A stretch of 64,000 nt of DNA from Bacteroidota bacterium (GTDB lineage Bacteria > Bacteroidota > Bacteroidia > Chitinophagales > Saprospiraceae), in contig JAIUPL010000003.1 in assembly GCA_020160935.1 (NCBI GenBank), forward strand, positions 124,001 through 188,000, written 5' to 3'. A program made the position numbers and the translations under genes. Of the stretch, positions 1,875 through 57,381 are shown piece by piece; position 1 is the first letter of the stretch; each line of letters begins with the position of its first letter. Under the pieces are notes generated by a model, which did no database searches, was not told the DNA's origin, and saw only the letters and a list, made by a program, of their open reading frames with translations.

Positions 1875-1901
1875 AAATCAGGTCAAAATAAAAAGTTGCG
1901 G

Positions 1902-1909
1902 CAAAGGTA
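1902..1909 (-). promoter_or_regulatory. Bacteroidota -7 promoter element TACCTTTG for the endonuclease gene
   Basis: On the minus strand this octamer matches the Bacteroidota -7 consensus TAnnTTTG and ends 27 bases before the ATG at 1874. I see no TTG -33 element at the usual 17-23 nt. It is the mirror image of the element at 2058-2065. Confidence 0.55.
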
Positions 1910-2057
1910 ATGACTAGAGTCCTAAGTCCTGAGTCGTAAGTCCTAAGTCCGTAGAGTTGACCATGTACTTTGGGCTTTTATTACTTTGAAGGCCAAGAGC
2001 ACATGGTCAACTCTACGGACTTAGGACTTACGACTCAGGACTTAGGACTCTAGTTAT

Positions 2058-2065
2058 TACCTTTG
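2058..2065 (+). promoter_or_regulatory. Bacteroidota -7 promoter element TACCTTTG for tex
   Basis: A TAnnTTTG match ends 30 bases before the preferred tex start at 2096. It is the mirror copy of the element on the minus strand at 1902-1909, each sitting near the outer end of a palindrome arm. No clear -33 TTG is seen. Confidence 0.55.
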
Positions 2066-2095
2066 CCGCCCATTTCAAAAAATACCACCGAAAAA

Positions 2096-4216
2096 ATGTC
2101 ATACGCACCCCGTATTGCGCCCCTTTTGCAGATTTCAGCCCGACGTGTAGAAGCAGTTATTGAATTGCTGGAAAGCGGCGCAACCATTCCATTTATTGCC
2201 CGATACAGAAAAGAAGCCACCGGCGAACTCGATGAAGTGCAGATCGCTGATATTCAGGATGCCTGGAAAAAAATGCAGGAACTCGACAAGCGCCGTGAGG
2301 TAATTCTGGCCAGCATTGAAGAGCAGGGCAAACTGACGCCTGAATTGAAAGCCGCCATCGAACAGGCTGCTACGATGACTGAATTGGAAGACCTGTACCT
2401 GCCATACCGCCCCAAAAGAAAAACGCGTGCCACCATGGCCATTGAAAAAGGCCTGGAACCCTTGGCCAAACGCCTGTTTGCCCAAAAAGACAAATCCGGC
2501 GTAGAGACCATCGCCGCTGCCTATATCAATGATCAGGTGCCGAGCGTAGACGATGCCTTACAGGGCGCGCGCGACATCATGGCTGAATGGATCAGCGAAG
2601 ACAAACAAGCCAGGGATAAAATCCGTCGCCATTTTGATAAAGGTGGTGTGATAGCCTCGCGGGTGGTGAAAGGCAAGGAAGAAGAAGGCAAAAAATACAA
2701 AGACTATTTTGAATGGAGCGAACCTCTGGCCAAATGCCCTTCGCACCGCTTGCTGGCCATGCGCAGGGGTGAAGAAGAGGGTTTCCTGCGCGTTGCCATT
2801 GCGCCGGATGAAGAACGTGCCATTCATGACCTCGACAATATGTACATCATAAGCAATGGCGAAGCGGCTTCCGAGGTGCGTCATGCCTTAAAAGACAGTT
2901 ACAAGCGCCTGTTGTCGCCTTCCATTGAAACGGAATTCCGGAACAACAGCAAAGAGAAAGCGGACATCGAGGCTATTCGTGTTTTTGCGGAAAACCTGCG
3001 CCAGTTGCTGCTCTCCTCTCCACTGGGCGAAAAACGTATTATGGGCATCGACCCCGGGTTTCGTACTGGATGCAAAGTAGTTTGCCTGGATGCCAGCGGC
3101 AATCTTTTATACAACACCGCCATTTACCCGCACGAACCACAGCGGCAGGTATTCGAAAGCCAGTCGGAAATTGAACACCTTGTGGAAAAGTACGGAATTG
3201 AAGCCATTTCCGTAGGAAATGGAACGGCTGGCCGCGAAACCATGGATTTTCTGCGCAACATCAAATTCGGGCATCCGGTTGAAATTTTTCAGGTCAATGA
3301 AGCCGGCGCCTCTATTTACTCTGCATCGGAAGTGGCACGGGAAGAATTTCCAAATTTCGACATTACCGTACGTGGAGCAGTCAGTATCGGCCGCCGACTG
3401 ATGGACCCGCTGGCTGAACTGGTCAAAATCGACCCGAAAAGTATTGGCGTAGGGCAATATCAGCACGATGTGAACCAAACATTGCTGAAAGACGGACTGG
3501 ATAGAACCGTTGAAAGTTGTGTAAATGCGGTTGGTATCAATCTGAATACTGCAAGCAAACACCTGCTTACCTACGTGTCGGGACTTGGTCCGGTGCTGGC
3601 ACAGAATATCGTCAACCACCGCGCAGAAAACGGCCCCTTCAAAAAACGCAACGACCTGAAAAAGGTAGCCCGACTAGGCGATAAGGCTTTTGAGCAATGC
3701 GCAGGTTTCTTGCGTATTCGGGATGCCGCCCATCCACTCGACAATACGGGTGTTCACCCGGAACGGTATGCGGTGGTGGAAGAAATGGCCGCCGATTTGG
3801 GCTGCAAAATTGCCGATCTGATAAAAGATAAAAGCCTGCGCAGCCGAATTGATTTAAAAAAATACGTTCGCGGCGATGTGGGCTTGCCAACCCTCCAGGA
3901 CATCATGAAGGAACTGGAAAAACCGGGCCTCGACCCGCGTGGCGCAGCCAAATCCTTCGAATTTGCCAATGTACACACGTTGGAAGACCTGTATCCGGGC
4001 ATGATATTACCAGGCATCGTCACCAATATTACCAATTTCGGTGCTTTTGTAGATATTGGTGTAAAAGACAGCGGGTTGGTGCACGTATCTCAACTGGCAG
4101 ATAAATTTGTGCGCGATCCTATGGAAGTCGTTTCACTAGGCCAACAGGTGACAGTACGGGTAGTAGAAGTTGATTTTGCCAGAAAAAGAGTGGCCCTGAG
4201 TATGAAAAACCTTTGA
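2096..4216 (+). CDS. tex: Tex family RNA-binding transcription accessory protein
   Basis: This 706-residue protein has the full Tex layout: a helical Tex N-domain (about residues 1-200), a YqgF/RNase H-like fold starting at RIMGIDPGFRTGCK (about 312-440), tandem helix-hairpin-helix segments (VSGLGPVLAQNIV, about 490-560), and a C-terminal S1 domain (about 630-706, with GIVTNITNFGAFVDIGV and GLVHVSQ). Tex binds nucleic acids and associates with transcription complexes; its exact role is unsettled. An in-frame TTG start at 2063 would place the start inside the -7 element and palindrome arm, so the ATG at 2096 is preferred. A hairpin terminator follows. Confidence 0.95.
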   Translation: MSYAPRIAPLLQISARRVEAVIELLESGATIPFIARYRKEATGELDEVQIADIQDAWKKMQELDKRREVILASIEEQGKLTPELKAAIEQAATMTELEDLYLPYRPKRKTRATMAIEKGLEPLAKRLFAQKDKSGVETIAAAYINDQVPSVDDALQGARDIMAEWISEDKQARDKIRRHFDKGGVIASRVVKGKEEEGKKYKDYFEWSEPLAKCPSHRLLAMRRGEEEGFLRVAIAPDEERAIHDLDNMYIISNGEAASEVRHALKDSYKRLLSPSIETEFRNNSKEKADIEAIRVFAENLRQLLLSSPLGEKRIMGIDPGFRTGCKVVCLDASGNLLYNTAIYPHEPQRQVFESQSEIEHLVEKYGIEAISVGNGTAGRETMDFLRNIKFGHPVEIFQVNEAGASIYSASEVAREEFPNFDITVRGAVSIGRRLMDPLAELVKIDPKSIGVGQYQHDVNQTLLKDGLDRTVESCVNAVGINLNTASKHLLTYVSGLGPVLAQNIVNHRAENGPFKKRNDLKKVARLGDKAFEQCAGFLRIRDAAHPLDNTGVHPERYAVVEEMAADLGCKIADLIKDKSLRSRIDLKKYVRGDVGLPTLQDIMKELEKPGLDPRGAAKSFEFANVHTLEDLYPGMILPGIVTNITNFGAFVDIGVKDSGLVHVSQLADKFVRDPMEVVSLGQQVTVRVVEVDFARKRVALSMKNL

Positions 4217-4224
4217 TAAAAAAA

Positions 4225-4254
4225 GGCAATGCCGGCCTTTCGACCGACATTGCC
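4225..4254. terminator. Bidirectional hairpin terminator between tex and the metalloprotease gene
   Basis: GGCAATG pairs with CATTGCC around a partly paired centre (CGG/CCG). It is preceded by an A-run (4218-4224) that serves as the T-tract for the minus strand. It sits between the two converging stop codons. Confidence 0.65.
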
Positions 4255-4278
4255 TACATCGTCAAAGTCAAATTAATA

Positions 4279-6705
4279 CTACATCTTTACAAAACGTTCT
4301 ACCGTTACCCGACGCTCATTGTTCACAATGGTAGCAAAATAAACGCCTGCCTGAAAATCAGCCACGTCTATTGGAGTTTGTTCCTGTAAAAGCGACATTC
4401 TACGGATGATACGTCCCGATGGGTCGGAAATGACTACTTCCGACGAAGGTGTGATTTCGCCATGGAACGTCAACATCAGTTGTGCGGCTGTTGGATTGGG
4501 CGCCAGGCTCAGGCTGTTGTCATCGAATGAGAGCGTAATGCTTGCGTTGTTCTGCGCCGTTTCTCCATCTATCAGGAATGCGGGTGTAACCAGGGTTAGT
4601 GGCGTAGAATATCCGGAGCAATTGGCTTTCACCTGCCACTGGTATGTTGTGGAAGCGCTCAAACCGCTGATGGTTACGGAAGTTACAGGCACTGTGCCAA
4701 TGGTGAAAAAGTTGCCGCTACCGATCTTGATTTGCAGGGTGTAGTTGGTAGCGCCCGATACTGCCGACCAGGTTATTCGGGCAGAGTAAGCGGTAATATT
4801 GCTGTTGCTCAAATTAACCGGCGCAGCGCAGGTGCCACCTCCTGTTCCGCCACCACTGCTGGCAGTGGTAAAAGTGGCAGTGGCGGAGTAAGCCGTGGCA
4901 CAGTTGGATTGTACACGCCAATTGTAAACTGTGCCGGGATTGAGTCCGCTCAGGCCGTAAGAATTGCTGGTAGTAGTGCCTGCGCTGGTCCAGGTGCTCG
5001 ACGAACTGAGTTTGTACTGCACGGTGTAACTCGTAGCGCCTGATACCGCTGTCCACTGAACCGTGACAGAACTGCTTGTAAGATTGGTATTTGTAAGGCC
5101 AACAGGTGCAGTGCAGGGCGTACTGCCCCCTCCGGAGCCCGTTCCTGTCGTAAAATTGGAACTTGCGGAGAAATTGGAACAATCAGTTTTCACCTGCCAG
5201 TTGTAAGTGGTGTTGGCTGCCAGACCCGTCAGGTTGTAGGAAGTGGTAGTAACGGCGTTCATCGTGTTCCATGTCGTAGAGGAGTTGTTTTTATATTGAA
5301 CGATATAACTGGTGGATCCCGTAACAGCCCCCCAGGAAAGCGTGGCGGAATTGCCGGTGACTGCACTGACTGTAAGTGCAGCGGGCACGTTTCCCGTTTG
5401 CGACAGACAGGTAGCCCCGCCCACTTGTGTACGGATTCTTGCACCTGGAAGCGGCCCAAAACCCTTGGTAAAATTGATCCCTACGCTGCTCAAATGGCAG
5501 TAACTCATGATGGTGCCTCCTCCCACAGGAGTAGGGCCAGGGGAGCAGGAACCTTCCGGAGAATAACAGTTGTCGATAGCCCCGCCTGTCCAGTTGCAGG
5601 AGTGTGTATGCCAGGCGCCCAGGTTGTGGCCCAGTTCGTGGGTAACTACCTCAACCGACCAGGAATAGGTAGGAATATTCTGAAACGACGTTCCAATGGC
5701 GCTTACCCCGTGCGCATAGTTTTTGAAACAAATGACATCGAGGTAGGCAATGCCTCCGCCCAGGGCACGGGATGACAGAAAATGCGCTATATTTCCGTTG
5801 TGGTTGGTGCCACGCTGGCTTCTGAATGCATTCAAAACTGTGCTGGTGCTATTGTAACTGGCATAAGGATCGGTCGATGTCCAGACATAAATTTGTGAAA
5901 TGGCAATGCCAACATTTTCGTTTGCATACAAGGCCGCCACCTGATTGAAGAGGCTGGTGACGTAATTGGTCACATTCGTGGTGCTGGAACCTTTGTCTGT
6001 GTATAGTTTGTAGTCGCATTCAAAATACACATTGACGGTTTTGCAGCCCACGCCTCTTTCATCCGTTGAAATTTCCTGGTCGGGCAAAACAGCATCGTCA
6101 TCGGCTCCGCATTCAAAGCCAATATTTGCTTTTAAATCGTTGGTTCTGAACAAAATATGGCTGCCTGAACCGTCTTCCATTTTACCCAGTTCCCATTTGT
6201 CATCGCCGTCGGCCATAAAACCTGCGATACCGGTACTGGTAAAACTAATGGCTGCCAGCGAATTGGGATGGTCTTTGATAATGCCACGATAATGTGCAGC
6301 AGGGTGGTAGGGAACGTTGTCGGCGGCGTTTTCGCCCAATGTCCCCACACTGAATTCCGGAGCGAGGATGTTTACTTTTACCAACTCCAGTTCCAGGGGC
6401 AGGTTTTCCTTGTTGGGCAATTGTAAGCGAAGGGTAGCGGGGGCCACATGCAGCAGTTCGTCGAGCGCCTGATCGTTGAGATTCAGCAACGATGCATTGT
6501 GCACGGCATTTTCCAGATCGCTGGAACGCTCCATGTTGAGATTAAAAATATCCACCGGGGCAAAATCGCCGGACAAGCGGTAACTTTCCAGCCATTCGGC
6601 TACAGGTGAAATGGATGTTTGATTTTGGGAAAAAGCCGGGAGCACCATGCTCAAAACCAGCAGAAGGGATGTGAAGGCTCGATTGATTAAAGGATTTGTG
6701 TGCAT
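4279..6705 (-). CDS. Secreted zinc metalloprotease with three FnIII domains and T9SS sorting domain
   Basis: This 808-residue protein has a signal peptide (1-26, ending in AFSQ), an N-terminal propeptide-like region (about 27-210), and a metzincin catalytic domain with HELGHNLGAWH at residues 356-366. That motif is the HExxHxxGxxH zinc site of reprolysin/M12B-type enzymes, and the downstream Met-turn candidate is TIMSYCH. Three fibronectin type III repeats follow (about 438-515, 525-610, 620-700), joined by Gly/Ser/Thr linkers such as GTGSGGGST. The last 80 residues are a T9SS sorting domain (LAPNPTAAQ to VERFVKM). It is a probable surface or secreted protease. Its start faces the aminotransferase gene across a 57-bp-arm palindrome. 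Exact peptidase subfamily is uncertain. Confidence 0.92.
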   Translation of the reverse strand: MHTNPLINRAFTSLLLVLSMVLPAFSQNQTSISPVAEWLESYRLSGDFAPVDIFNLNMERSSDLENAVHNASLLNLNDQALDELLHVAPATLRLQLPNKENLPLELELVKVNILAPEFSVGTLGENAADNVPYHPAAHYRGIIKDHPNSLAAISFTSTGIAGFMADGDDKWELGKMEDGSGSHILFRTNDLKANIGFECGADDDAVLPDQEISTDERGVGCKTVNVYFECDYKLYTDKGSSTTNVTNYVTSLFNQVAALYANENVGIAISQIYVWTSTDPYASYNSTSTVLNAFRSQRGTNHNGNIAHFLSSRALGGGIAYLDVICFKNYAHGVSAIGTSFQNIPTYSWSVEVVTHELGHNLGAWHTHSCNWTGGAIDNCYSPEGSCSPGPTPVGGGTIMSYCHLSSVGINFTKGFGPLPGARIRTQVGGATCLSQTGNVPAALTVSAVTGNSATLSWGAVTGSTSYIVQYKNNSSTTWNTMNAVTTTSYNLTGLAANTTYNWQVKTDCSNFSASSNFTTGTGSGGGSTPCTAPVGLTNTNLTSSSVTVQWTAVSGATSYTVQYKLSSSSTWTSAGTTTSNSYGLSGLNPGTVYNWRVQSNCATAYSATATFTTASSGGGTGGGTCAAPVNLSNSNITAYSARITWSAVSGATNYTLQIKIGSGNFFTIGTVPVTSVTISGLSASTTYQWQVKANCSGYSTPLTLVTPAFLIDGETAQNNASITLSFDDNSLSLAPNPTAAQLMLTFHGEITPSSEVVISDPSGRIIRRMSLLQEQTPIDVADFQAGVYFATIVNNERRVTVERFVKM

Positions 6706-6756
6706 AAGATGATGATGAAAAAATTAAAAGTGAAAAAATCGGTTAGAGTACTCGTA

Positions 6757-6905
6757 TCAGTTATTGGTTATCAGTTATTGGTTATTAGGGGTTGGTAAGG
6801 GTTTATTTTCACAATCTATTGGCATCACTTTTCGAGTAGCCAAAAATGTGTGAAAATAAACCCTTACCAACCCCTAATAACCAATAACTAATAACCAATA
6901 ACTGA
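6757..6905. repeat. 57-bp-arm inverted repeat between divergent genes, 7-bp words
   Basis: Arms 6757-6813 and 6849-6905 are reverse complements with one mismatch (C in TTATCAG against T in TTATTAG) and a 35-nt loop. The outer part is heptameric: TTATTGG, TTATCAG, TTATTGG, TTATTAG from 6761. The inner part is a unique block of about 28 bases around GGTAAGGGTTTATTTTCACA. It ends 9 bases before the aminotransferase start. I see no TAnnTTTG element in these arms, unlike the locus at 1898-2069. Confidence 0.95.
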
Positions 6906-6914
6906 CCAACCCGC

Positions 6915-7766
6915 ATGTCAATGAACAATATCAATTTTAACACCCAAGTGCTTGCTGAATGGCCGCCGGAATTGCTTTCCGCACAGCGCGGATTGTACTA
7001 TGGCGACGCATTATTTGAGAGTATCCGGGTTTTTGGGGGCCGGATACCGCTCATGGAAGCGCATTGGGAGCGGCTTTCTGGAGGTTTGTTGGCAATGGGA
7101 TATCAATTGCCGGCCATTTGGTCGGCTGCGTTTTTTGAAAAAGAAATCCTGCGCGTGGCGTCGCATGACGCACGTGTGCGGTTGACAGTATGGCGGTCGC
7201 CGGGCGGCTTGTATTTACCGCAAGACGACACACCCCAGTTTTTGGTGTCCGCTACAGAACTGTCTTCAAGTACGTTTGATGGATATTCAGAGGGGCTATC
7301 AATTGGTTTTTGCCAGGGCGTACGGCTTTCAGTGGATTCATTGTCGGGTTGGAAAACCCCAAATGGAGCGCGTTATGTGGCAGCGGCAAAAGAAGCGTGC
7401 GCCAGAGGCTGGGATGATGCTATTCTGTTGAATAGCCGGGAACAGGTTTGTGAGGCGACGAGCAGCAACGTGTTCTGGGTTGCCGGCCGTCAGGTATTTA
7501 CCGTTCCGTTGTCTGACGGCCCTGTAACAGGCGTAATGAGAAATTTATTGTTGCACCTTCTTCCGCGTACAGGGCACTCCGTGAGCGAAAAATCGATCGA
7601 GTACGGGGAACTCATGGATGCCGATGAAGTGTTTCTGACCAATGCCGTAAGAGGCATTCGATGGGTGTCGCGATGCGAGGGAAAGGTTTTTAAACAGAAT
7701 CTTTCTGCGCACTTTAACTATCTACTGGCTGACTGGCTGAAAGACATTTTAAGTGCCTCTATTTGA
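6915..7766 (+). CDS. Class IV PLP-dependent aminotransferase (IlvE/PabC-like)
   Basis: This 283-residue protein has the fold-type IV hallmarks: GLYYGDALFESIRV near residue 27, a lysine in GWKTPNGARYVAAAKEA near residue 150 at the position of the PLP Schiff-base lysine, DAILLNSREQVCEATSSNVF, and GPVTGVMRNLLL. This family includes branched-chain aminotransferase, D-amino acid aminotransferase and aminodeoxychorismate lyase; sequence reading alone does not separate them. The length and the ATSSNVF phosphate-cup motif suit either PabC or a small IlvE paralogue. A second in-frame ATG two codons later is equally possible. It is the first gene after the palindrome. Confidence 0.85.
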   Translation: MSMNNINFNTQVLAEWPPELLSAQRGLYYGDALFESIRVFGGRIPLMEAHWERLSGGLLAMGYQLPAIWSAAFFEKEILRVASHDARVRLTVWRSPGGLYLPQDDTPQFLVSATELSSSTFDGYSEGLSIGFCQGVRLSVDSLSGWKTPNGARYVAAAKEACARGWDDAILLNSREQVCEATSSNVFWVAGRQVFTVPLSDGPVTGVMRNLLLHLLPRTGHSVSEKSIEYGELMDADEVFLTNAVRGIRWVSRCEGKVFKQNLSAHFNYLLADWLKDILSASI

Positions 7767-7887
7767 ATAAAAATGCGCGTTCTTTGCATGTCCGAACACC
7801 CGGAAAAAAGCAGGAAAAAAAATATTTTCCCATCTTCAATTTTAACATTTCCAGGGTAAACCTTTCTTGCTAATCACCATTCTCAAT

Positions 7888-9120
7888 ATGTTAAAAAACC
7901 GTCAGGCCGCTGTTGGCTTTATCTTCGTCACCTTACTCATCGACGTGATCGGATTCGGGATCATTATTCCTGTGATTCCCAAACTTATTACCCATCTCAC
8001 TGGCGATTCATTGAGCAATGCTTCCAAGGTTGGAGGCTGGCTGATGTTTTCGTATGCGCTTATGCAATTCATATTCGCCCCTATTTTGGGCGGTTTGAGC
8101 GACCGGTACGGTAGACGCCCCATTTTGCTGATGTCATTGTTTGGTTTTGGAGTCGATTACATTTTTCAGGCATATGCCCCCAGTATCGGCTGGCTTTTTG
8201 TCGGCCGTACGCTGGCAGGTATTTTGGGCAGCAGTTTTACAACCGCATCTGCCTATATTGCAGATGTGAGTACGCCGGATAAACGTGCACAAAACTTTGG
8301 CTTGGTCGGTGCTGCATTCGGCATGGGCTTTATCATCGGGCCTGCCATCGGGGGCGTGCTGGGCCAATACGGCCCGCGAGCGCCTTTTCTTGCTGCTGCT
8401 GCGCTGGCCTTGATCAACTGGTTGTACGGGTTTCTGATTTTACCCGAATCACTGGATGTTAAAAACCGGCGGGCCTTCGACTGGAAACGCGCCAATCCGA
8501 TTGGTACATTGCTGCAATTGCGCAATTATCCGGTTATCATGGGTATGTTGGGCTCTCTGGTGCTGTTGTACATCGCCGGTCAGGCAGTACAGGGCGCGTG
8601 GTCGTATTATACCATGGAAAAATTTCACTGGAACGAACAATGGGTTGGATATTCCCTGAGTTTTGTCGGACTGATGACCGCTATCGTTCAGGCAGGACTG
8701 ATAAGAATCATCATCCCGAAAATAGGACAGGAACGCGGCGTTTACGTAGGTTTGGGGCTGTATTCACTTGGTTTCCTATTGTTTGCTTTTGCCACTCAAA
8801 GTTGGATGATGTTTGCTTTCTGCATTCCATATTGCCTTGGAGGAATCGCAGGACCTTCTTTGCAGGGCCTTATTTCCAGTCAGGTGCCCCCCAATGTACA
8901 GGGCGAATTGCAAGGAGGACTGACGAGTCTGATGAGTGTCACCTCATTTGTCGGGCCCTTGCTGATGACCAATATTTTTTCCTATTTCACTTCCCCGGGC
9001 GCCCCGATTTATTTTCCCGGAGCAGCCATGCTGACAGGCGCTATATTAACGATAATCAGTACCTTGCTGGCTTATCGGAATTTGCACTTGAAAAAAAAGA
9101 ACATAGACACCGGTTCATAG
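7888..9120 (+). CDS. TCR/Tet-type MFS drug-efflux transporter
   Basis: This is a 410-residue 12-helix MFS protein. The first helix has [17 protein letters not shown]. The motif A loop [14 protein letters not shown] and the motif C region [16 protein letters not shown] are typical of the TetA/drug:H+ antiporter-1 group. It would export a small hydrophobic compound or drug by proton exchange; the substrate is unknown. A TTG at 7867 is in frame, but the ATG at 7888 fits family length. The biotin carboxylase ATG follows its stop after four bases, suggesting one transcript with accC and the helicase. No recognisable promoter element was found in 7767-7887. Confidence 0.88.
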
Positions 9121-9124
9121 CACC

Positions 9125-10597: not shown

Positions 10598-10605
10598 ACC
10601 AGCCC

Positions 10606-11922: not shown

Positions 11923-11925
11923 TTT

Positions 11926-13602: not shown

Positions 13603-13689
13603 GAAGGGGCGAGGTGCAAAGGGCAAGGGGCAAAAATCAAGGGGCAAGGGGCAAAGGGCAAATGCAAAGGCCAAGGGGCAAAAAGGGAA
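13603..13689. repeat. Imperfect 7-bp tandem array (CAAGGGG/CAAAGGG) filling the galT-oxidoreductase gap
   Basis: The whole 87-base space between the converging stop codons is made of CAAGGGG and CAAAGGG heptamers with a few interruptions (clearest at 13617-13680). It is not arranged as a palindrome. The word is of the CCCCART type known from short tandemly repeated repetitive (STRR) sequences in filamentous cyanobacteria. No other function is visible. Confidence 0.85.
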
Positions 13690-19203: not shown

Positions 19204-19387
19204 ACGCCCCGAGCGTAGAGTAGTTTCCCGCAGATTTGCGCAGATTTTCCCGCAGAACTCGCAGAACGTAGATTACACCGATATTTTCAAAGCGAAAAAA
19301 AGGAGTACTCTAAGTATACTCTACGTTCTGCGAGTTCTGCGGGAAAATCTGCGCAAATCTGCGGGAAACTACTCTACGCTCGGGCGT
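19204..19387. repeat. 68/69-bp-arm inverted repeat, CGTAGAGTAG...CGCAGA family, locus A
   Basis: Arm 1 (19204-19272) and arm 2 (19320-19387) are reverse complements apart from one extra C in arm 1, with a 47-nt loop. The arms contain imperfect repeats of CCCGCAGATT/CGCAGAA, bordered by CGTAGA(GTA). A partial extra copy precedes it at 19178-19200. It lies between the converging barrel and hemH genes and could act as a bidirectional terminator, although it is far longer than needed. The same family recurs at 28854-29054. Confidence 0.95.
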
Positions 19388-20413: not shown

Positions 20414-20447
20414 GCAAGAGGTGAGAAGTGAGAGGTGAGAAGTGAGA
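20414..20447. repeat. 7-bp tandem array (GTGAGAA/GTGAGAG) filling the ABC-hemH gap
   Basis: About four heptamers alternate GTGAGAA and GTGAGAG and fill the 34 bases between the ABC exporter stop and the hemH ATG. Read on the gene strand (CTTCTCACCTCTCAC) it has no stop codon in this frame, which lengthens the apparent hemH frame upstream. Confidence 0.85.
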
Positions 20448-25926: not shown

Positions 25927-25990
25927 CTTTGTGTCCATCGTGTTCTTCGTGGTTTGTTTTTTAACCAAGAAGAACACGATGGACACAAAG
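25927..25990. repeat. 28-bp-arm inverted repeat (CTTTGTGTCC... family) between converging genes
   Basis: Arms 25927-25954 and 25963-25990 are reverse complements with one mismatch and an 8-nt, T-rich loop. The motif CTTTGTGTCC...TTCGTGG belongs to the same word family as the longer palindrome at 39208-39322. The location suits a bidirectional terminator for the porin and the DUF5723-type gene. Confidence 0.9.
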
Positions 25991-28853: not shown

Positions 28854-29054
28854 GCGTTATTTTCCGTAGAGTAATTTCCCGCAGATTGCGCAGATTTTCC
28901 CGCAGATCTCGCAGAATGTAGAGTACACAATTAGAGTACACAATTAAAGTAAACAATGTTATCGATTTGAAGAAAACAGGTGTACGCTACATTCTGCGAG
29001 ATCTGCGGGAAAATCTGCGCAATCTGCGGGAAACTACTCTACGGAAAATAGCGC
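28854..29054. repeat. 75-bp-arm inverted repeat, CGTAGAGTA...CGCAGA family, locus B
   Basis: Arms 28854-28928 and 28980-29054 are reverse complements with three mismatches and a 51-nt loop; the loop contains direct repeats of AGAGTACACAATT. The family is the same as at 19204-19387. It differs from that locus by a one-base deletion and two substitutions (GAACTC to GATCTC, GAACG to GAATG), each mirrored in both of its own arms. Decayed words continue to about 29105. Together with the fba terminator and the MFS promoter it accounts for most of the 462-base gap 28774-29235. Confidence 0.95.
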
Positions 29055-39207: not shown

Positions 39208-39322
39208 ATGTACACTCTACACCTTGTGTCCTTTGTGAAACCTTCGTGTCCTTTGTGGTAAAAATATTTAAACACAAAGTGCACGAAGGTTTCACAAAGG
39301 ACACAAGGCGTAGAGTGTACAT
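39208..39322. repeat. 50-bp-arm inverted repeat (CCTTTGTGT words) between dnaG and anmK
   Basis: Arms 39208-39257 and 39273-39322 are reverse complements with three mismatches around an AT-rich 15-nt loop. Arms consist of CCTTGTGT, CCTTTGTGA, CCTTCGTGT and CCTTTGTGG words, bordered by ATGTACACTCTAC. The AACCACGAAGGACACAAAG-type word is also found in intergenic DNA of unrelated bacteria and archaea (established). The locus is between co-directional genes, so any terminator role would be for dnaG. Confidence 0.93.
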
Positions 39323-41831: not shown

Positions 41832-42046
41832 GTGAGTGGTGAGAGGTGAGTAGTCAGTAGTGAGTGGTGAGTAGTGAGTGGTGAGTAGTGAGTGGTGAGT
41901 AGTGAGTGGTGAGTAGTGAGTAGTGAGTAGGGTTTCACCACTCCCGAACTCACTACTCACTATTGACTACTCACTATTGACTACTCACTATTGACTACTC
42001 ACTATTGACTACTCACTACTCACTACTCACTACTGACTACTCACCT
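41832..42046. repeat. 7-bp tandem array arranged as a palindrome between preA and the cytosine deaminase gene
   Basis: The left half (41832-41930) is about 14 GTGAGTA/GTGAGTG words. After a spacer of about 20 bases the right half (41950-42046) is about 14 inverted words (CTCACTA, with TTGACTA alternating). The outer 22 bases of the two halves (from 41844 and ending 42046) are exact reverse complements, while interior words differ between halves. The right end includes the preA stop codon and the left end reaches within three bases of the deaminase ATG. On the minus strand the right half has stop codons in all frames; the left half is open. Confidence 0.93.
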
Positions 42047-43378: not shown

Positions 43379-44729
43379 GATGAGAGGTGAGAGGTGAGAG
43401 GTGAGAGGTGAAAAACTGGTGGATACCTTGAGCGGCCATTTTTCCTTCATAAGCGCCATTGACTACTTCAGCACCACCATTGACAGCGTCGCCACCTGCG
43501 AAATAACGCGGATTGCCGGTCTGATACGTTTGCGCGTTCACTACGATGCGCCGCGAAGCATCGAGGGTGAGCCCGGGAATCAATTCCAGAAAGCCCGCCA
43601 TTTTGGCCTGCCCGGTTGCTTTGATGACCAGGTCGCACTCGATCACAAATTCAGAGTCAGGCACTTCGGTAAGGCGTCCGTTTTGTGAAACCGTTTTGAC
43701 AAATTCCACACCTGCCACATATCCATCTTGCTCGAGGATTTCACGCGGACTGGCGTTAAAAATGCCTTGTACACCTGCGCTCAATGCCAAATCGTATTCA
43801 AAAGAATAGCCTCCCATTTCCTCTTTGGAGCGGCGGTAGGCCAGGTACACCTGCTCAGCGCCCATACGTGCCGATTCGGAAGCAGCATCCATGGCAGTAT
43901 TACCACCGCCCAATACGACAACCCGATTGGGTACCTGCATGCCGTGTTTTTTAAAGCGTAGTTCGCGGATAAACTCTACAGCGCCGGTTACACCTTTTAC
44001 ATCCTCACCTTTTACATTCAGGGAAGCAGTTGGCCCGATACCTACACCGATAAATACTGCATCATATTGACTTTCAATATTTTGCAATTGTTCGCGTGTG
44101 GTAATGGCGCTGTTGTATTTTACCTGAAAGTCCAGTTGCTGCTGTAAATATTCAATTTCAGAGAGCGCTTCCTCATTGGTGATTTTATACGGCGCAGTGC
44201 CATACACTGTCAGTCCGGAGGGGCGCTCATGGGCTTCAAAAATGGTCACCTCATAGCCCAGCACCGACAATTCACAGGCACAGGAAATTCCAGCGGGACC
44301 AGCACCGATGATTGCTACTTTTTTGCCGTTCGGAGCGCCTTTTTGAAACAGTTTTTTCTCCTGATCGATGACCTGCCGGGTAGCGTAGTTTTGAAGACGC
44401 CCAATTTCGATGGGTTTCACATGCGCGTGGTTGTGCACACATGCGCCTTCGCACAGCACCTGTGTAGGGCACACCTTGCCGCAAGCGTTGCCCATCCAGT
44501 TGCTGTCGTAAATGGTCTCCGCTGCCCCGGTTGTGTTTCCTGTGTGTATCTGCTTGATAAACAATGGAATATCAATATGCGTTGGGCAGGCTTTTACGCA
44601 GGGCGCATCGTAGCAGAACAGGCAGCGCGAACTTTCCACAAAAGCCTCTGTCTGATTCATCAGCGGCTTTTTTTGCTTGAAGTTCTGCTGAAACTCCTCT
44701 TCCGATTGTGGTCGTTTGTATTCAGCCAT
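43371..44729 (-). CDS. preT: Dihydropyrimidine dehydrogenase subunit PreT
   Basis: In this 452-residue protein the N-terminal 4Fe-4S region has CLFCYDAPCVKACP and CGKVCP...CEGAC. FAD and NAD sites follow: GAGPAGISCACELSVLGYEV and VVVLGGGNTAMDAA. It passes electrons from NAD(P)H to PreA. The last residues (SHLSPLTSHHG) are a translation of the 43379-43411 heptamer array, not family sequence. The frame extends upstream to 44756, but the ATG at 44729 gives the family start and sits four bases after the beta-ureidopropionase stop. Confidence 0.95.
   Translation of the reverse strand: MAEYKRPQSEEEFQQNFKQKKPLMNQTEAFVESSRCLFCYDAPCVKACPTHIDIPLFIKQIHTGNTTGAAETIYDSNWMGNACGKVCPTQVLCEGACVHNHAHVKPIEIGRLQNYATRQVIDQEKKLFQKGAPNGKKVAIIGAGPAGISCACELSVLGYEVTIFEAHERPSGLTVYGTAPYKITNEEALSEIEYLQQQLDFQVKYNSAITTREQLQNIESQYDAVFIGVGIGPTASLNVKGEDVKGVTGAVEFIRELRFKKHGMQVPNRVVVLGGGNTAMDAASESARMGAEQVYLAYRRSKEEMGGYSFEYDLALSAGVQGIFNASPREILEQDGYVAGVEFVKTVSQNGRLTEVPDSEFVIECDLVIKATGQAKMAGFLELIPGLTLDASRRIVVNAQTYQTGNPRYFAGGDAVNGGAEVVNGAYEGKMAAQGIHQFFTSHLSPLTSHHG
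43379..43411. repeat. GTGAGAG heptamer array inside the preT 3' end
   Basis: Between four and five GTGAGAG words lie at 43379-43411. They are translated as the last ten residues of PreT. It is the same word as in the gap at 20414-20447 and closely related to the words of the 41832-42046 array. Confidence 0.85.
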
Positions 44730-49989: not shown

Positions 49990-50023
49990 ATCCAGGTAGT
50001 TAGTAGTTTGAAAAAAGAGAAAA

Positions 50024-51493: not shown

Positions 51494-51715
51494 ACTCGAT
51501 CTTTTTTGGTAGGGAAAAAACAAACCTGAAAGCATCGTGAAAAGGCGGTTGTGTTGCTCAGGTTGAGTTTGTTGGGGTGGTGAAAGTAATGGGTTTATCA
51601 TTCCAGCGCAAGGTATGCTCTAAAATTTCAGGAGGATTTTTTCAAAAGGTTTATGCATTTGCTGGCAGGCCTGCATCATTTCCCCGTACATGAACCACCT
51701 CAATCTTTCTTGTTT

Positions 51716-53380
51716 ATGAAAAAAATTCTTTTGTTTTTGCTGCTTGCCTGCCAGATCGGAATGGCTCAAACTTCCAAACCGATCAAATCGAATGTAGACC
51801 GTGTTATCGTTTTTAACCGGGGCGCCCAATTGTTTTCCACTGAAAAAATTTCCTTGCCGGCCGGCACACACCAACTCGTTTTCGAAAATATTTCCCCGTA
51901 TGCGCAGGAAGCATCCCTGCAAGCGGGTGCGGGGAATGGCGCAGTGGTGATGGACGTTCGATACAACCTGTACTATACTGTGGCTGAGAAAAAACCATCC
52001 GACCCTTCGCTGAAAAAACTGGAAAAGGACCTTAAGGCAGTGCTGGATTCGCTCACAGATGTGGGCTTTACCATGAAAGGACTACAAAACAGGATCAATA
52101 ACCTGTCCACAGAACGGACGATCCTGTTGGGTAACAGGATGATGAAGGGAGAATTTCAACGCGATTCATTGATCGTATTTCAGCAAAGCATTGAATACCT
52201 GCGTATTAGACTGGAAAATATCAACGCGGAAATGCTCAAACTTGAACGCGAGCAGAATAAATGGGGTGATCTCCGCTCGGCCCTCGAACAGCGACAAACT
52301 ACCTTGCAGACCCTGATTTCAGGCAATTACGAACCTGCAGGTGAAAATCCGCAGCCCGTTCCGCAGGTCATTATCACGTTGTTATGCGAACGCGCGGTTA
52401 ATACGGAAGTCAATTTCAATTATTTCGTAGAAAATGCCGGCTGGACGCCCGCTTATGATTTGCGCGCTGATAACAACTCTACAGACATGGAACTCAACCA
52501 CCGCGCAGGGGTATATCAAAGTTCGGGGATTGAGTGGAAAGATGTGTGGCTTACACTCTCGACGGGCAACCCAAATGAATCCGGTATTAAACCCGTTTTG
52601 AGTCCCTATTTGTTGAGTTATGAGCAATACAGGGCCGCTCCCAGAAAAAAAATGCAGGAGCAAGCCCTGGCCAAACCCGCAGCGTCGAATGTTACCGACG
52701 ATCTAAAAGAGAGGGCTGAAGAAGATGAGAAAGACATCGATGGCGTATTTGATTACACCGTTGTTACTCAAAATGCCTTGCGAACGGAGTATGAAATCAG
52801 CCTGAAATACACCATCGCTTCTGACGGACAAGCCCACCATGTCGTTATCCAGAACAAAAGAATTCCTGCGCAGTACAATTATGCCGTGGTGCCAAAACTC
52901 GACCCGGATGTGTTTCTCATGGCCCGCGTGACAGACTGGGAAGACCTCAACCTGGTGCCCGGGACTGCCAGGGTGTATTTTGAAGGCACTTATGTTGGGC
53001 AAACGGTTATCAACCCTGGTACCACCAACGATACCTTGCAGATCAATCTCGGCCGCGACAAAAGTATTGTGGTCAAGCGCACAAAACTGAAAGACAAGTC
53101 GCGCGAGAAAATTCTTGCCGAAAACAAGGAGGTCATCAAAACCTTTGAAATCAGTGTGCGCAACACCAAAAATATCCCCATCCGACTGATTGTGGAGGAT
53201 CAAATGCCCATTTCCTCCGACCCATCCATCAAAATTTCCTATGATGAGTACGGTAAAGCATCGTTTAATCCGGATACCGGTAAATTGATCTGGGATTTGA
53301 AACTAGACCCCAAGGAAAATAAAAAGGTGAGTTTTAGTTTTGGGGTGAAGTATCCGAAGGAGAGACAACTGCAAATTTAG
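51716..53380 (+). CDS. DUF4139/MuiA-family secreted protein
   Basis: This 554-residue protein has a signal peptide (1-18, ending GMAQ), an N-terminal DUF4140 part (VDRVIVFNRGAQLF, about residues 26-120), a coiled-coil-like centre (about 150-210) and a C-terminal DUF4139 beta domain with YDLRADNNS, EIDGVFDYTV-like DIDGVFDYTV and INLGRDKSIVVKRTKLKD. The family name derives from a mucoidy inhibitor; molecular function is unknown. The frame reaches back to 51653, but the ATG at 51716 starts the signal peptide. A palindrome begins at its stop codon. Confidence 0.85.
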   Translation: MKKILLFLLLACQIGMAQTSKPIKSNVDRVIVFNRGAQLFSTEKISLPAGTHQLVFENISPYAQEASLQAGAGNGAVVMDVRYNLYYTVAEKKPSDPSLKKLEKDLKAVLDSLTDVGFTMKGLQNRINNLSTERTILLGNRMMKGEFQRDSLIVFQQSIEYLRIRLENINAEMLKLEREQNKWGDLRSALEQRQTTLQTLISGNYEPAGENPQPVPQVIITLLCERAVNTEVNFNYFVENAGWTPAYDLRADNNSTDMELNHRAGVYQSSGIEWKDVWLTLSTGNPNESGIKPVLSPYLLSYEQYRAAPRKKMQEQALAKPAASNVTDDLKERAEEDEKDIDGVFDYTVVTQNALRTEYEISLKYTIASDGQAHHVVIQNKRIPAQYNYAVVPKLDPDVFLMARVTDWEDLNLVPGTARVYFEGTYVGQTVINPGTTNDTLQINLGRDKSIVVKRTKLKDKSREKILAENKEVIKTFEISVRNTKNIPIRLIVEDQMPISSDPSIKISYDEYGKASFNPDTGKLIWDLKLDPKENKKVSFSFGVKYPKERQLQI

Positions 53381-53483
53381 TTATGAGTTATGAGTTATGA
53401 GTTATTCTCACGTTGCTATCGGCTTCTTCATTAGGGTAGCCGATAGCAACGTGAAAATAACTCATAACTCATAACTCATAACT
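53379..53483. repeat. 46-bp-arm inverted repeat with TTATGAG heptamers between converging genes
   Basis: Arms 53379-53424 and 53438-53483 are reverse complements with one mismatch and a 13-nt loop. The outer part is three TTATGAG words; the inner part is a unique block around CACGTTGCTATCGGCT. Arm 1 overlaps the last bases of the stop codon of the DUF4139 gene and extra words run to 53489, near the anti-sigma stop. A bidirectional terminator function is plausible. Confidence 0.95.
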
Positions 53484-53492
53484 CATAACTCC

Positions 53493-54098
53493 CTACGCCG
53501 CTATTTTCTTCCACTGAATAATCGCTTTGGCAGGTTTGGAAGAGGTGATTTGCAGATCGTGGTGTTCGCCAATCTGCATAGTATAAAAGTCGCCTTCTGC
53601 GAGGCGGATGGTGCGTTGTTGGCCATCCATGCCAGTAATATAACAGGTGCAGGAACCTTCCAGAATCAAAAAACTTTCGAGTACATCGGTGTGTACTTCT
53701 TCCGGGATAAACTCCTTTACCCAGGCAACAAACAATTCACGCTCCTCATTTTCTTCGAGCGTATGCATGTATATGTCTTCGAAGTCTTCCGGAGGCTGGA
53801 TATTACTGGTAAGTTCTTGCCAATCCAGCAGGTTGGCAGACTCATCCAAAAAAGGGAGGTTATTTAGATTCAAGGGTTGGCGCTGGCTCTTTTGCTGATT
53901 GAGCAAACGAATTTTGTCCAGCACTTTGTTGCGCAGGTCGGGAGGTGGCGCCAGGGCATAATCATTGGCCAGATGGATTAAATCCTCCTCTGCCTGCACG
54001 ACAGCCTCCTGGCTTATCGGGGAGTCGGGGTGTTCGTTCAGAATTTCCCGAATTTCATCGCGTGTGATGTCATAATTCTTTTCCAAAGCAAAATTCAA
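53493..54098 (-). CDS. Cupin-type anti-sigma factor
   Basis: In this 201-residue protein the first 75 residues contain IHLANDYALAPPPDLRNKVL, a motif shared by anti-sigma-K/ChrR-type regulators. The C-terminal 80 residues form a cupin barrel (ESFLILEGSCTCYI, EGDFYTMQIGEHHDL). Unlike ChrR of Rhodobacter I see no N-terminal HxxxCxxC zinc motif, so any redox or ligand sensing would have to use the cupin. It is 12 bases after the ECF sigma gene and would inhibit that sigma factor. Confidence 0.8.
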   Translation of the reverse strand: MNFALEKNYDITRDEIREILNEHPDSPISQEAVVQAEEDLIHLANDYALAPPPDLRNKVLDKIRLLNQQKSQRQPLNLNNLPFLDESANLLDWQELTSNIQPPEDFEDIYMHTLEENEERELFVAWVKEFIPEEVHTDVLESFLILEGSCTCYITGMDGQQRTIRLAEGDFYTMQIGEHHDLQITSSKPAKAIIQWKKIAA

Positions 54099-54110
54099 TC
54101 GTTGTGTGGG

Positions 54111-54668
54111 TCAGGTAAAATACTGTCTGAGTTCTTTCATGGCAGTACGGGCGCGTAGTTTTACCGTACCCAGCGGGATATTAAAATGATCGGCAATTTC
54201 CTGTTGTGTATATCCTTCGAAATACATCCATTCAATCACCTGACGGCATGCGGGGGAAAGTTTGTCTACCAGTTGGCGAAGGCCCATGGTATCCGTTGAA
54301 ACCTGATAGGCAGACGAACCGCCACCCGTATCTACGAAGTGATCGAGCGTTTGGTTTTTATTTTTTTGAGAAAAATATTTGGATCGGGTAAAATCAATGG
54401 CCGTATTGCGGGCAATGTTGATCAGCCAGGTTACCAGTTTCCCTTTTTCTGCGTTGTATCGGGCTGCATTTTGCCAGATTTTAACAAAACAATCCTGCAA
54501 AAGGTTTTCCGCCTCTTTTCTATCAATTACAATACGAACGATTACACCAAACAGCAAGTTGGCATAATTGTCATATAACCGTGCATATGCTTCTTCATCC
54601 CCTTCAACTAGCAGGGAAATCAAATGCGCATCAGCGTTGGTTTGATTTGTTGCAAGTTCTACTGGCAC
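54111..54668 (-). CDS. ECF sigma factor (SigK/RpoE-like)
   Basis: This 185-residue protein has region 2 (AYARLYDNYANLLFGVIVRIV, AENLLQDCFVKIWQ, WLINIARNTAIDFTRS) and region 4 (LSPACRQVIEWMYFEGYTQQEIADHF, GTVKLRARTAMKELRQYF). It directs RNA polymerase to a small stress regulon, likely including the facing SnoaL and cytochrome genes. A full Bacteroidota promoter precedes it. Confidence 0.93.
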   Translation of the reverse strand: MPVELATNQTNADAHLISLLVEGDEEAYARLYDNYANLLFGVIVRIVIDRKEAENLLQDCFVKIWQNAARYNAEKGKLVTWLINIARNTAIDFTRSKYFSQKNKNQTLDHFVDTGGGSSAYQVSTDTMGLRQLVDKLSPACRQVIEWMYFEGYTQQEIADHFNIPLGTVKLRARTAMKELRQYFT

Positions 54669-54701
54669 TTTTTTAACAAGAGGTTTTCACTGGATGATGG
54701 A

Positions 54702-54733
54702 CAAAGGTAAAAATTTGAAAGAACCTGATCCAA
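54702..54733 (-). promoter_or_regulatory. Promoter of the ECF sigma operon (TTG-N21-TACCTTTG)
   Basis: On the minus strand TACCTTTG (54709-54702) with TTG at 54733-54731, spacing 21 nt, matches the consensus exactly. It lies 33 bases before the ATG. The promoter suggests housekeeping transcription rather than ECF autoregulation. Confidence 0.7.
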
Positions 54734-54790
54734 GATTTTGATTTCCTCGTACATGGGGAGAACAAAATTTCATCACAAAAATTTTTACCA

Positions 54791-55276
54791 ATGAAAATCC
54801 TTATTTTTTCCCTGGCCTGTATGGCTTTCCTCTCTGCCAATGCTCAAACACTGGCACAAAACAAGGCTGTTACGGATGCCTTTTATGTAGCCTTCAATGG
54901 CGATGCTGCCAAATTCGATGCATCTGCGTTGGTAGCGCCTGATTTTATCGATCATGCAATTCCCTCGGATGTATGGATGCAAATGGGCGCCAATGGCATC
55001 GAACGTTTTCAGAACAGCATTGTCGCTTTCAAACAGGCATTTCCAGATGTGCACGTACGCACGCTCAAAACCGTGGCAGAAGGCAATACGGTAATGGTGT
55101 ACCTGGAAATGACCGGCACCTTCACAAATGATTTTATGGGTCTGAAAGCCACCGGCAAATCTTTCAAATTGAATGATGTGGATATTGTTGAATTCAACAA
55201 CTCCGGAAAGGCCATTGCCCACTGGGCGGTGCAGGATGCTGCCGTTATGTGGATGCAACTAGGCGTGAAAATGTAG
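54791..55276 (+). CDS. Secreted SnoaL-like (NTF2 fold) protein
   Basis: This 161-residue protein has a signal peptide (1-19, ending ANAQ) and one NTF2/SnoaL fold with GIERFQNSIVAFKQAFPDVHV and ATGKSFKLNDVDIVEFNNSGKAIAHW. SnoaL-like 'ester cyclase' proteins often lack known substrates. It is divergent from the ECF sigma operon and paralogous to the double-domain protein at 56459. It is the first gene of a run with the cytochrome. Confidence 0.85.
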   Translation: MKILIFSLACMAFLSANAQTLAQNKAVTDAFYVAFNGDAAKFDASALVAPDFIDHAIPSDVWMQMGANGIERFQNSIVAFKQAFPDVHVRTLKTVAEGNTVMVYLEMTGTFTNDFMGLKATGKSFKLNDVDIVEFNNSGKAIAHWAVQDAAVMWMQLGVKM

Positions 55277-55356
55277 GAATTGTTTGATCACACCCTTTGA
55301 AAAGACTAATTGTTCCAAAATCTGGCAGGTATTACTGCTGAAAACGACAACCCAAC

Positions 55357-56328
55357 ATGAGACGTGTATTTAAATTTTTGCTGTACAGCATCGGCATTCT
55401 GGTATTGTTTGTGGCTGCTGCCGCCGCTTTTTTCTACTTTAAAGGTGTCCCGTCCTATGCTTTTGCACCGACGGCTGAAATAGCCGGACTGAAAGTAACA
55501 AAGGATAGCGTACACATTGCTCGCGGGGCAAAGATTGCAGCCCTGATGTGCAACGAATGCCATTTGGGTGAAAAAATGAAAATGACCGGCAAAATCATGC
55601 CCGATCTTCCAAAAGAATTTGGCGCCGTGGCTTCCTACAACATCACACAGGATGCAGACCATGGTATTGCAAAATGGAGCGACGGCGAACTGTATTATTT
55701 CCTGCGAACAGGTATTCGCAAGGACGGCTCCTGGGCGCCTCCTTTTATGCCTAAATTCCCCTTGATGGCCGATGAAGACCTGTATTCCGTCATTGCCTGG
55801 CTACGTTCCGACGACCCGCGGCTGCAGGCAACTCCAGACGAATACCCGCCCAATCAGTATAATTTGCTGGTTAAATTTCTGAGCAATGTCGCTTTTTCTG
55901 CACCGCCTTTGCCCGATCAGGTCATTGAGGTGCCCGACACTACGGACATGGTAGCACTCGGCAAATACGTGGCCAACGGGATGTCGGTTTGTTTCCCTTG
56001 CCACTCAGCCGATTTTAAAAAATTTGATCTGCTGGTACCTGAAAATACGCCTGGATTTTACGGTGGCGGCAACCCCATGCTCAATATGGAGGGAGAAATA
56101 GTGCATTCTGCCAATATCACCATGGACAAGGAAACCGGGCTTGGAAAATTCTCCCGACAGCAATTTCTGGAAGCCGTGAAATATGGCAAAAATCCCAGAG
56201 GTGGCTCCCTGGTGTATCCGATGTTTCCTCATACGACGCTGACGGATCAGGAGGTAAATGCCGTGTATGCCTATTTGCAGACCGTGCCTGTTATCCATAA
56301 TCCGGTAGATCGCTACGTCCGACATTAG
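55357..56328 (+). CDS. Membrane-anchored dihaem cytochrome c
   Basis: This 323-residue protein has an N-terminal anchor helix (about 7-28) and two haem-c sites, CNECH (65-69) and CFPCH (212-216). Each is followed by a helical cytochrome fold; possible Met ligands occur in MPKFP and YPMFP segments. It likely transfers electrons in the periplasm. It lies between two SnoaL-type genes of the same putative regulon. Confidence 0.9.
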   Translation: MRRVFKFLLYSIGILVLFVAAAAAFFYFKGVPSYAFAPTAEIAGLKVTKDSVHIARGAKIAALMCNECHLGEKMKMTGKIMPDLPKEFGAVASYNITQDADHGIAKWSDGELYYFLRTGIRKDGSWAPPFMPKFPLMADEDLYSVIAWLRSDDPRLQATPDEYPPNQYNLLVKFLSNVAFSAPPLPDQVIEVPDTTDMVALGKYVANGMSVCFPCHSADFKKFDLLVPENTPGFYGGGNPMLNMEGEIVHSANITMDKETGLGKFSRQQFLEAVKYGKNPRGGSLVYPMFPHTTLTDQEVNAVYAYLQTVPVIHNPVDRYVRH

Positions 56329-56398
56329 AAAACGGTGAATCCATTCTAATTCCCGCTTTCGGTTTATTTCAAACACAACTTTTTCAAAATTTCCATTT

Positions 56399-56430
56399 GT
56401 CCTGCAAAGGACCAGGCATGTCCATGCCTG
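56399..56430. promoter_or_regulatory. Two adjoining short dyads in the leader of the double SnoaL gene
   Basis: GTCCT-GCAA-AGGAC (56399-56412) is directly followed by CAGGCATG-TC-CATGCCTG (56413-56430), ending 28 bases before the ATG. They could be operator half-sites or mRNA hairpins. Confidence 0.3.
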
Positions 56431-56458
56431 CATCAATACTCACTTTTCTTAACTTTCC

Positions 56459-57328
56459 ATGTCAACCATGAAAAACACTTCTTTTTTCACCATGATGCTG
56501 GCAGTTTTCTGCTTGCAAACCGCTTTCGCTCAAGATGTTACCTCCAAAAACATGGCCTCCATCCGAAAAGCATATGATGCACTGAACCGCCGTGACTGGG
56601 CGACTTTTGCGGATCAGTGCGCTCCTGAATACACGGATGTAAATGTGGGCCCGGCTCCCGCAGTTGGCATCGAAGCGGCACTGGAGTTGTACAAACAGTT
56701 CGCGATGGGTTTTCCTGATTTTAAAATTCAAATCAACGAAATCGCTGCAATAAATCCTACTCGTTACCTGCTCCGGGTGACTGTAACCGGCACCAATACG
56801 GGCGCTTTCGGAATGTTGCCCGCTACCGGAAAATCCATTCATTTCGACGATTCGGATGTTGTGGAGTTCAACAACAACGGAAAATGCATCAGCCATTCCA
56901 TTACAAATGCCGGCGAGCCGCTTCGACAGATCGGGTATGGTTCCATGCTGAATCCTAATACCGGAGCAGTGATAGCCCTTTATGAAAAATTCGGCAAGGG
57001 CGACGTGCCGGGTATTCTGGCCATGTGCAGCGACGATGTCGTGTTCAATATCGAAGATCGTGTGTTCGACGATCATTCCCGCATGTTCAAGGGCAAGGCC
57101 CAGGTTGGGCAGTTTTTTCAGGAACTGGGTAGCAAATTCCAGTATTCCAAATTCCAGCCTGTGCGGTTTATTGCCGATGGCGATGATGTAGTGATCCTGG
57201 TAGATGTGGAATACAAACATATTCCTTCCGGTAAAATCTATACCTCTTCTTACACCCACCGTTTCAAACTCAAAAACGGGCAAGTGGTGTTGTTCAGAGG
57301 CATTGATGATTTTCAGATGATGAAGTGA
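56459..57328 (+). CDS. Secreted protein with two SnoaL-like domains
   Basis: This 289-residue protein has a signal peptide (ending FAQD, about residue 24) and two NTF2-fold domains (about 30-155 and 165-289). The first is paralogous to the 161-residue neighbour (ATGKSIHFDDSDVVEFNNNGKCISHS) and the second resembles SnoaL_2-type (VIALYEKFGKGDVPGILAMCSDDVVFN). The function is unknown. A second ATG three codons in is equally good. A short palindrome follows. Confidence 0.85.
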   Translation: MSTMKNTSFFTMMLAVFCLQTAFAQDVTSKNMASIRKAYDALNRRDWATFADQCAPEYTDVNVGPAPAVGIEAALELYKQFAMGFPDFKIQINEIAAINPTRYLLRVTVTGTNTGAFGMLPATGKSIHFDDSDVVEFNNNGKCISHSITNAGEPLRQIGYGSMLNPNTGAVIALYEKFGKGDVPGILAMCSDDVVFNIEDRVFDDHSRMFKGKAQVGQFFQELGSKFQYSKFQPVRFIADGDDVVILVDVEYKHIPSGKIYTSSYTHRFKLKNGQVVLFRGIDDFQMMK

Positions 57329-57340
57329 TTTGAGAGGGGC

Positions 57341-57381
57341 TGTTCGGTTTCGCCTTACATTATGTTAGGCGAAGCCGAACA
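57341..57381. repeat. 20-bp-arm palindrome after the double SnoaL gene
   Basis: Arms 57341-57360 and 57362-57381 are reverse complements with two mismatches and a single-base loop, in a 12-base-offset gap between co-directional genes. It lacks a T-tract, so a terminator call is weak. It is the shortest of the long palindromes in this window. Confidence 0.8.

Follow-up and report, generated by a model that had tools for sequence, protein, structure and literature searches.

Dispersed families of hairpin-shaped word repeats in a Saprospiraceae genome and their link to S23 and GxxExxY genes

The spacers of a Bacteroidota bacterium of the family Saprospiraceae (GenBank assembly GCA_020160935.1; 5.84 Mb in 51 contigs) carry numerous long palindromes, which were analysed here in a stretch of 64,000 nt (contig JAIUPL010000003.1, positions 124,001 to 188,000; hereafter the window, in whose numbering positions without a label are given) and in further DNA of the same genome. 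The palindromes are hairpin-shaped repeats that are composed of short words and fall into some fifteen dispersed families, about seven of which are represented in the window. Moreover, genes for two small proteins, S23 and GxxExxY, were found between inverted copies of such words far more often than other genes. With moderate confidence, we read the palindromes as miniature elements of hairpin shape in about fifteen word families, many of which would have their own S23 or GxxExxY gene, whose product would recognise the word hairpin and spread copies of it.

The family survey covered 829,862 bases of the genome, window included, and yielded 158 palindromes, while three shuffles of the same sample yielded none. 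Since 141 of the 158 fall into 13 clusters and 17 are single, the idea of mutually unrelated palindromes was rejected. The largest cluster (52 palindromes) combines several words; sorted by word, about fifteen families were distinguished with units mostly of 7, 8, 9 or 10 nt, and 19 of the 158 palindromes received no family label. The best self-match lag was 7 for families A, B, E, I, N and K, 14 and 7 for F, 8 for L, M and H, 9 for D, J and P and 10 for G, and it was unclear for C, so that several families are heptamer tandem words of the kind termed heptamer simple sequence repeats (SSR) or short tandemly repeated repetitive sequences (STRR). Besides the words, inner stems and loops are common to many loci. 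A tip of the form GGC-15/16 nt-GCC was present in 17 of the 158 palindromes, including the one at 6757-6905, with about 0.1 expected from shuffled centres; it is limited to families A, B and E and three unlabelled elements, and one universal tip was therefore rejected.

An initial annotation of the window had described the palindromes as intergenic or at gene ends and as occurring about once per 7 kb, and both statements agree with the sample. Only 12 of the 158 palindromes have more than half of their length within an open reading frame (ORF) of at least 100 aa, although such ORFs make up 86% of the sample. The window and stretches L003-L022 contain one palindrome per 5.1 kb; the stretches sampled later, computed without the seven that had been chosen for a known match, contain one per 6.7 kb. 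Convergent spacers are preferred: 51 of 81 contain a palindrome, compared with 74 of 285 spacers in tandem and 16 of 99 in divergent arrangement.

Eight of the nine window loci listed as inverted repeats in the initial annotation were recovered, with arms of 28-82 nt and a finder score of at least 20. As a check the annotation had proposed shuffled controls, and 30 first-order Markov shuffles of the window contained no palindrome at a score of at least 16. The ninth locus (57341..57381, without strand) is by eye only a short imperfect hairpin in no recovered family; it was missed by the finder even at low threshold and had no match in other sampled DNA of the genome. By family, the eight recovered palindromes are one each of A, B, E and F and two each of C and D, and sequences similar to every one of them are present at other places in the genome. 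The statement that most loci share no sequence thus holds inside the window only.

For these sites, and for the comparisons below, relatives were consulted that are metagenome-assembled genomes of Saprospiraceae or Bacteroidota, above all the sister genome G008 (about 85% nucleotide identity), of which 424 kb were used. The palindromes, none of which is assigned a strand, are located as follows. The family A palindrome (AGTCCTG/AGTCCTA heptamers, then a CGTAGAGTTGACC inner stem) at 1898..2069 occupies the divergent spacer between an endonuclease I-like and a Tex-like gene, and the G008 site has the same word. At 6757..6905, also a divergent spacer, stands a family B palindrome (GTTATTG/GTTATCAG heptamers) with the tip TTGGC-15 nt-GCCAA; same-word palindromes are found there in G008, G030 and G024, and a weaker one in G017. 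Family C (CGTAGAGT..TTTCCCGCAGA) is represented at 19208..19384, in a convergent spacer preceding ferrochelatase, and at 28858..29050, in a tandem spacer downstream of an FBP-aldolase gene, where G030, G024 and G017 have other words. Family D (CTTTGTGTCC / CACAAAG words) is found in a convergent spacer at 25927..25990 and in the tandem spacer between dnaG-like and anmK-like genes at 39208..39322. The family F palindrome (AGTGAGTGGTGAGT) at 41832..42046, in a tandem spacer, corresponds to a family M palindrome in G008 and to other words in G030 and G024, and the family E palindrome (AGTTATG heptamers) at 53379..53483, in a convergent spacer, to a family F palindrome in G008. Of this family E palindrome, near-full-length copies with 88-93% identity occur in distant contigs of this genome.

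Across the sample, 45 palindrome sites could be aligned to G008: 22 have the same top word (three of them without a palindrome at threshold), 11 have a palindrome with another word (two of them in one compound spacer) and 12 have neither. At these spacers, more distant relatives have yet other words. Palindromes recur at many of these positions in the orthologous spacers of four other assemblies, and there is therefore no sign of assembly foldbacks. Whole palindromes are present or absent between the sisters at otherwise aligned spacers in both directions: spacers filled here and empty in G008 are L006:6968 (165 nt versus 3 nt) and that of the window palindrome at 39208 (160 nt versus 2 nt), and spacers filled in G008 and empty here are C64:43469 (273 nt versus 0 nt), C64:7644 (188 nt versus 3 nt) and C136:10832 (178 nt versus 5 nt). 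No target-site duplication of at least 4 nt was evident at the displayed empty sites, the junctions of which cannot be fixed with one sister at about 85% identity.

Word use was compared by counting one exact form per word in the 424 kb of G008, with expectations taken from the rate in this genome. In G008, words E (11 versus 28.6 expected) and G (9 versus 38.3) are less frequent in these exact forms, L (0 versus 23.0) and M (0 versus 32.2) were not seen, and X is more frequent (11 versus 1.0); word use thus differs between the sisters by degree. An absolute word turnover, first read from 118 kb of G008, was weakened to this matter of degree by the 424 kb, and a conversion of G sites into X sites was likewise weakened, as it holds at 3 of 6 sites plus one X-like remnant. 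Dispersed families, presence or absence of whole units and the shift in word use leave the view that the loci do not behave as a mobile repeat family without support. Three further sites were recorded in the comparison with G008: a double palindrome of family C, an arm of which measures 143 nt (L006:14270-14647), where G008 has a single-armed ATGATGA array only; a near-perfect 51-bp palindrome of unique sequence (L086:4087-4137), where G008 has just TA; and a 159-bp insert with 32-nt inverted ends and no word family (L014:7389-7545), cleanly missing in G008.

The two arms of a locus are closely matched, with a median identity of 94% over the 158 loci and a median aligned arm of 53.5 nt. Among all sampled arms of the cluster, the partner was the nearest one for 99 of 134 loci, a count that is biased upward by the detection of loci through their symmetry. 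Because of this mode of detection, orthologous sites provide the cleaner test. At 16 of 19 same-word orthologous sites, which had to be palindromic in both species, both arm matches within this genome and within G008 exceeded both matches between them. The arms may be re-copied in place or the elements may be replaced as units, and the data fit either. The process envisaged in the initial annotation, by which local inverted copies are maintained, is partly borne out, in that arms stay matched while their sequence changes; the copies are dispersed families rather than one-offs.

The starting point of the gene link was an ORF between two palindromes at one family A locus, which encodes an S23 protein, the 23S rRNA intervening sequence protein with its four-helix bundle. 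The genome has ten matches to the S23 family (PF05635; NCBIfam TIGR02436), nine of them above the Pfam cut-off. Flanks were tested for inverted similarity to each other with a threshold score of 14. Eight of the ten S23 genes lie in inverted matching flanks with a score of at least 14, and these flanks hold eight different words (L, G, A, F, I, B, E and M); the same top word stands on both sides of seven of the ten. Overall, 39 of 67 usable S23 loci (70 were fetched) reached the threshold compared with 11 of 970 other ORFs from this genome and relatives (Fisher p about 1e-42). The 39 comprise 7/10 loci of this genome, where flank lengths differed slightly from those used for the count of eight, 20/29 and 6/18 loci of other Saprospiraceae and 6/10 loci of cyanobacterial plasmids, that is, 32 of 57 usable loci outside this genome. 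The first Saprospiraceae set (29) contains the best-scoring match per genome and the second (18) is less selected; for the plasmids, ten of 20 records with a match were fetched.

S23 was found in 102 of 120 Saprospiraceae genomes searched, and no match was obtained in a phage collection. Where S23 proteins of different genomes are similar, their words tend to agree: among 2,211 gene pairs, flank sequence was shared in 10 of 15 pairs with more than 60% protein identity versus 1.1-8.3% in the lower identity bins, and of nine of those ten alignments that were inspected, seven showed clear words or word-like repeats and one a mixture of coding sequence and word.

GxxExxY genes (PF13366; NCBIfam TIGR04256; PD-(D/E)XK type) number five in the genome, and three of them have words on both sides, namely D, P and J. 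The D, E and K residues of the PD-(D/E)XK site are kept (two genes were judged by eye), which gives the protein a nuclease-type signature; a comparison with solved structures returned nothing credible. Inverted flanks were seen at 11 of 15 GxxExxY loci: 3/5 here, 3/5 on plasmids (five of eight matches were fetched; the positives are from Bacteroides, Gemmatirosa and Sphingomonas) and 5/5 on IMG/VR contigs, two of which are near identical. Additionally, the repeats on either side of the IMG/VR genes L187-L190 are inverted and AT-rich and do not resemble this genome's words. The ten annotated plasmid S23 loci are bordered by protein genes. Some cyanobacterial plasmid S23 genes (L172, L173, L174 and L184) are placed between cas genes or ribonucleotide reductase genes and the Sphingomonas GxxExxY gene is placed between fabD and fabG, as if these genes had been dropped into conserved neighbourhoods.

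As controls, ORFs of the same genome were scanned, and 8 of 617 reached the inverted-flank threshold, among them two S23 genes and one gene for a Y1 transposase resembling the transposases associated with repetitive extragenic palindromic sequences (REP-associated tyrosine transposases, RAYT). RAYT-like Y1 genes are a known kind of repeat-associated gene, and the recovery of this one in an unbiased scan serves as a positive control. The same word was present on both sides of 10 of the 15 S23 and GxxExxY genes of this genome versus 7 of 588 control ORFs (Fisher p of 3e-14). The probability that 13 genes draw 13 different words was 1e-4, a soft value because the count takes in two one-sided GxxExxY genes.

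We propose that an element combines tandem copies of a short word with an inner stem and a loop, and that its second arm mirrors the first. In many families a single small gene, enclosed by inverted copies of that family's word, would form one master locus; the gene would be S23 for mostly heptamer words and GxxExxY for mostly nonamer-like words. The encoded protein would recognise its own word hairpin, as DNA or RNA; recognition may allow copies lacking the ORF to spread into spacers without target-site duplication, and copying through the hairpin would re-match the arms. S23 is related to XCC0516 (PDB 2GSC), a pentamer of four-helix bundles, and to Avd, a protein of diversity-generating retroelements (DGR), as described in PMC10053308 and PMC4990558, and nucleic-acid binding is therefore plausible.

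A number of observations weigh against this proposal. No movement was observed, and we know of neither a transposase-like chemistry nor a catalytic site for S23. At threshold, 28 of the 67 S23 loci have no inverted flanks, including 12 of 18 in the less selected sample. In this genome the S23 gene L113 is accompanied by a heptamer palindrome at just one of its ends, the S23 gene L115 (below the Pfam cut-off) by none, and the GxxExxY genes L117 and L118 by a word at only one end each (C and K); no gene was found for families H and N. Adjacency on one side is common by chance (a word at 344 of 588 and a palindrome at 231 of 591 control ORFs), and therefore only matches on both sides were counted as evidence; an adjacency of all five GxxExxY genes to any family word was accordingly weakened as little above chance. 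On two Nostoc plasmids (50 kb of each) the S23 word was found only at the S23 gene, the shared flank of L130-L142 is coding similarity only, and the 424 kb of G008 yielded neither S23 nor GxxExxY genes. Moreover, presence and absence were judged from one sister genome and fit insertion or deletion alike.

In the literature no paper was found that links S23 or GxxExxY to intergenic word palindromes, in a search outside of which subscription papers mostly lay. Several described systems are comparable as far as the accessible parts of the cited papers go. REPIN-RAYT systems comprise dispersed extragenic palindromes, with several families per genome and a distinctive gene beside each family (PMC3116915). 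The palindromes described here are likewise dispersed, extragenic and clustered into families, and a distinctive gene stands between members of its own repeat family (8/10 S23 and 3/5 GxxExxY genes); however, this gene belongs to PF05635 or PF13366 and not to the Y1 HUH transposases, two genes of which lie elsewhere in the genome, and the arms are long word arrays rather than REP pairs. On the preferred reading, the word families would work like REPIN-RAYT but, their gene being no Y1 transposase, do not belong to it. In 23S rRNA intervening sequences an S23 ORF lies between terminal inverted repeats that form a stem, and mobility was suggested by earlier authors (PMC4990558). The S23 ORF here also lies between stem-forming inverted repeats, but the annotated plasmid loci are between protein genes, the arms are word arrays and copies without an ORF are numerous. 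Intergenic arrays of 7-nt words, as found here, are known as GGGAATC in Xanthomonas, with 70 and 75 inverted pairs in two genomes, and as GGGGA(C/T)T in Nostoc, and are generally not associated with mobile elements (PMC4692102); TAACTGA arrays occur in Beggiatoaceae, cyanobacteria and five Bacteroidetes (PMC4679880). A cognate gene is proposed here, whereas the accessible parts of both papers propose none. The BrickBuilt miniature inverted-repeat transposable element (MITE) of Porphyromonas, also Bacteroidota, is intergenic and has tandem units inside inverted ends, but it is one family with a 23-nt unit, and no cognate gene is mentioned in the accessible part of its description (PMC4596501). 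Classical MITEs, moved by DDE transposases, leave the target-site duplication that was not evident, at a length of at least 4 nt, at the empty sites displayed against the one sister.

Three single-armed arrays on the + strand were also located in the window: one of the family I word AAGGGGC (13604..13682), one of a family M-like word (AGAGGTGAGAAGTG, 20417..20447) and one of TGAGAGG at the overlap of two gene calls (43381..43411). A scan of the window gave neither an Rfam match nor a tRNA. Such single-armed arrays, together with the re-matching of arms within species, are what would be expected of a local process only, in which tandem slippage makes word arrays, the mirror arm is written where it stands by template switching at replication forks (quasipalindrome correction), and no element moves, the genes being bystanders; this is close to the view taken in the initial annotation. 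This explanation appears unlikely, since inner stems and loops recur at many loci in addition to the words, near-full-length copies occur in distant contigs, whole palindromes are cleanly present or absent, and the same word stands on both sides of S23 and GxxExxY genes. The elements could instead be moved in trans by another enzyme of the Y1/RAYT or DDE type, with S23 and GxxExxY as cargo or bystanders. The genome does have two Y1_Tnp genes, L001 (C42) and L002/L068 (C29), one of them with inverted flanks, but the hairpins near them differ in sequence from the word families, different S23 genes lie in different words, and words tend to be shared between similar S23 proteins of different genomes; this alternative, too, is given little credence.

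A selected function of the hairpins as transcription terminators or mRNA stabilisers, drifting by compensatory change, would account for the preference for convergent spacers and for the persistence of palindromes at the same spacers with other words. It is nevertheless improbable, as divergent spacers hold palindromes as well, two of them in the window, many spacers are empty, and neither the replacement of whole words, which stepwise compensation leaves unexplained, nor the gene link follows from it. Finally, palindromes are a known assembly hazard, but foldbacks are hardly credible as an explanation, given the palindromes in orthologous spacers of other assemblies and the same S23 anatomy on complete plasmids.

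Beyond the preferred reading of hairpin elements with their own S23 or GxxExxY genes, a wider one is put forward tentatively, as possible rather than probable: S23 and GxxExxY, for which we know of no assigned function, might serve, as its dedicated proteins, a class of hairpin elements that has so far gone unrecognised, with one gene per word, in which the word is the address, copies spread, and one arm is rewritten from the other without a known transposase. This class might also take in the 23S rRNA intervening sequences as well as the heptamer repeats known from Xanthomonas and cyanobacteria. If true, the rule of one gene and one word would give S23 and GxxExxY a testable role, would connect rRNA intervening sequences with intergenic heptamer repeats, so far described separately, and would explain the upkeep of hundreds of matched inverted repeats in one genome. 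The link between genes and words is the new point, and it hints at the function of two widespread proteins.

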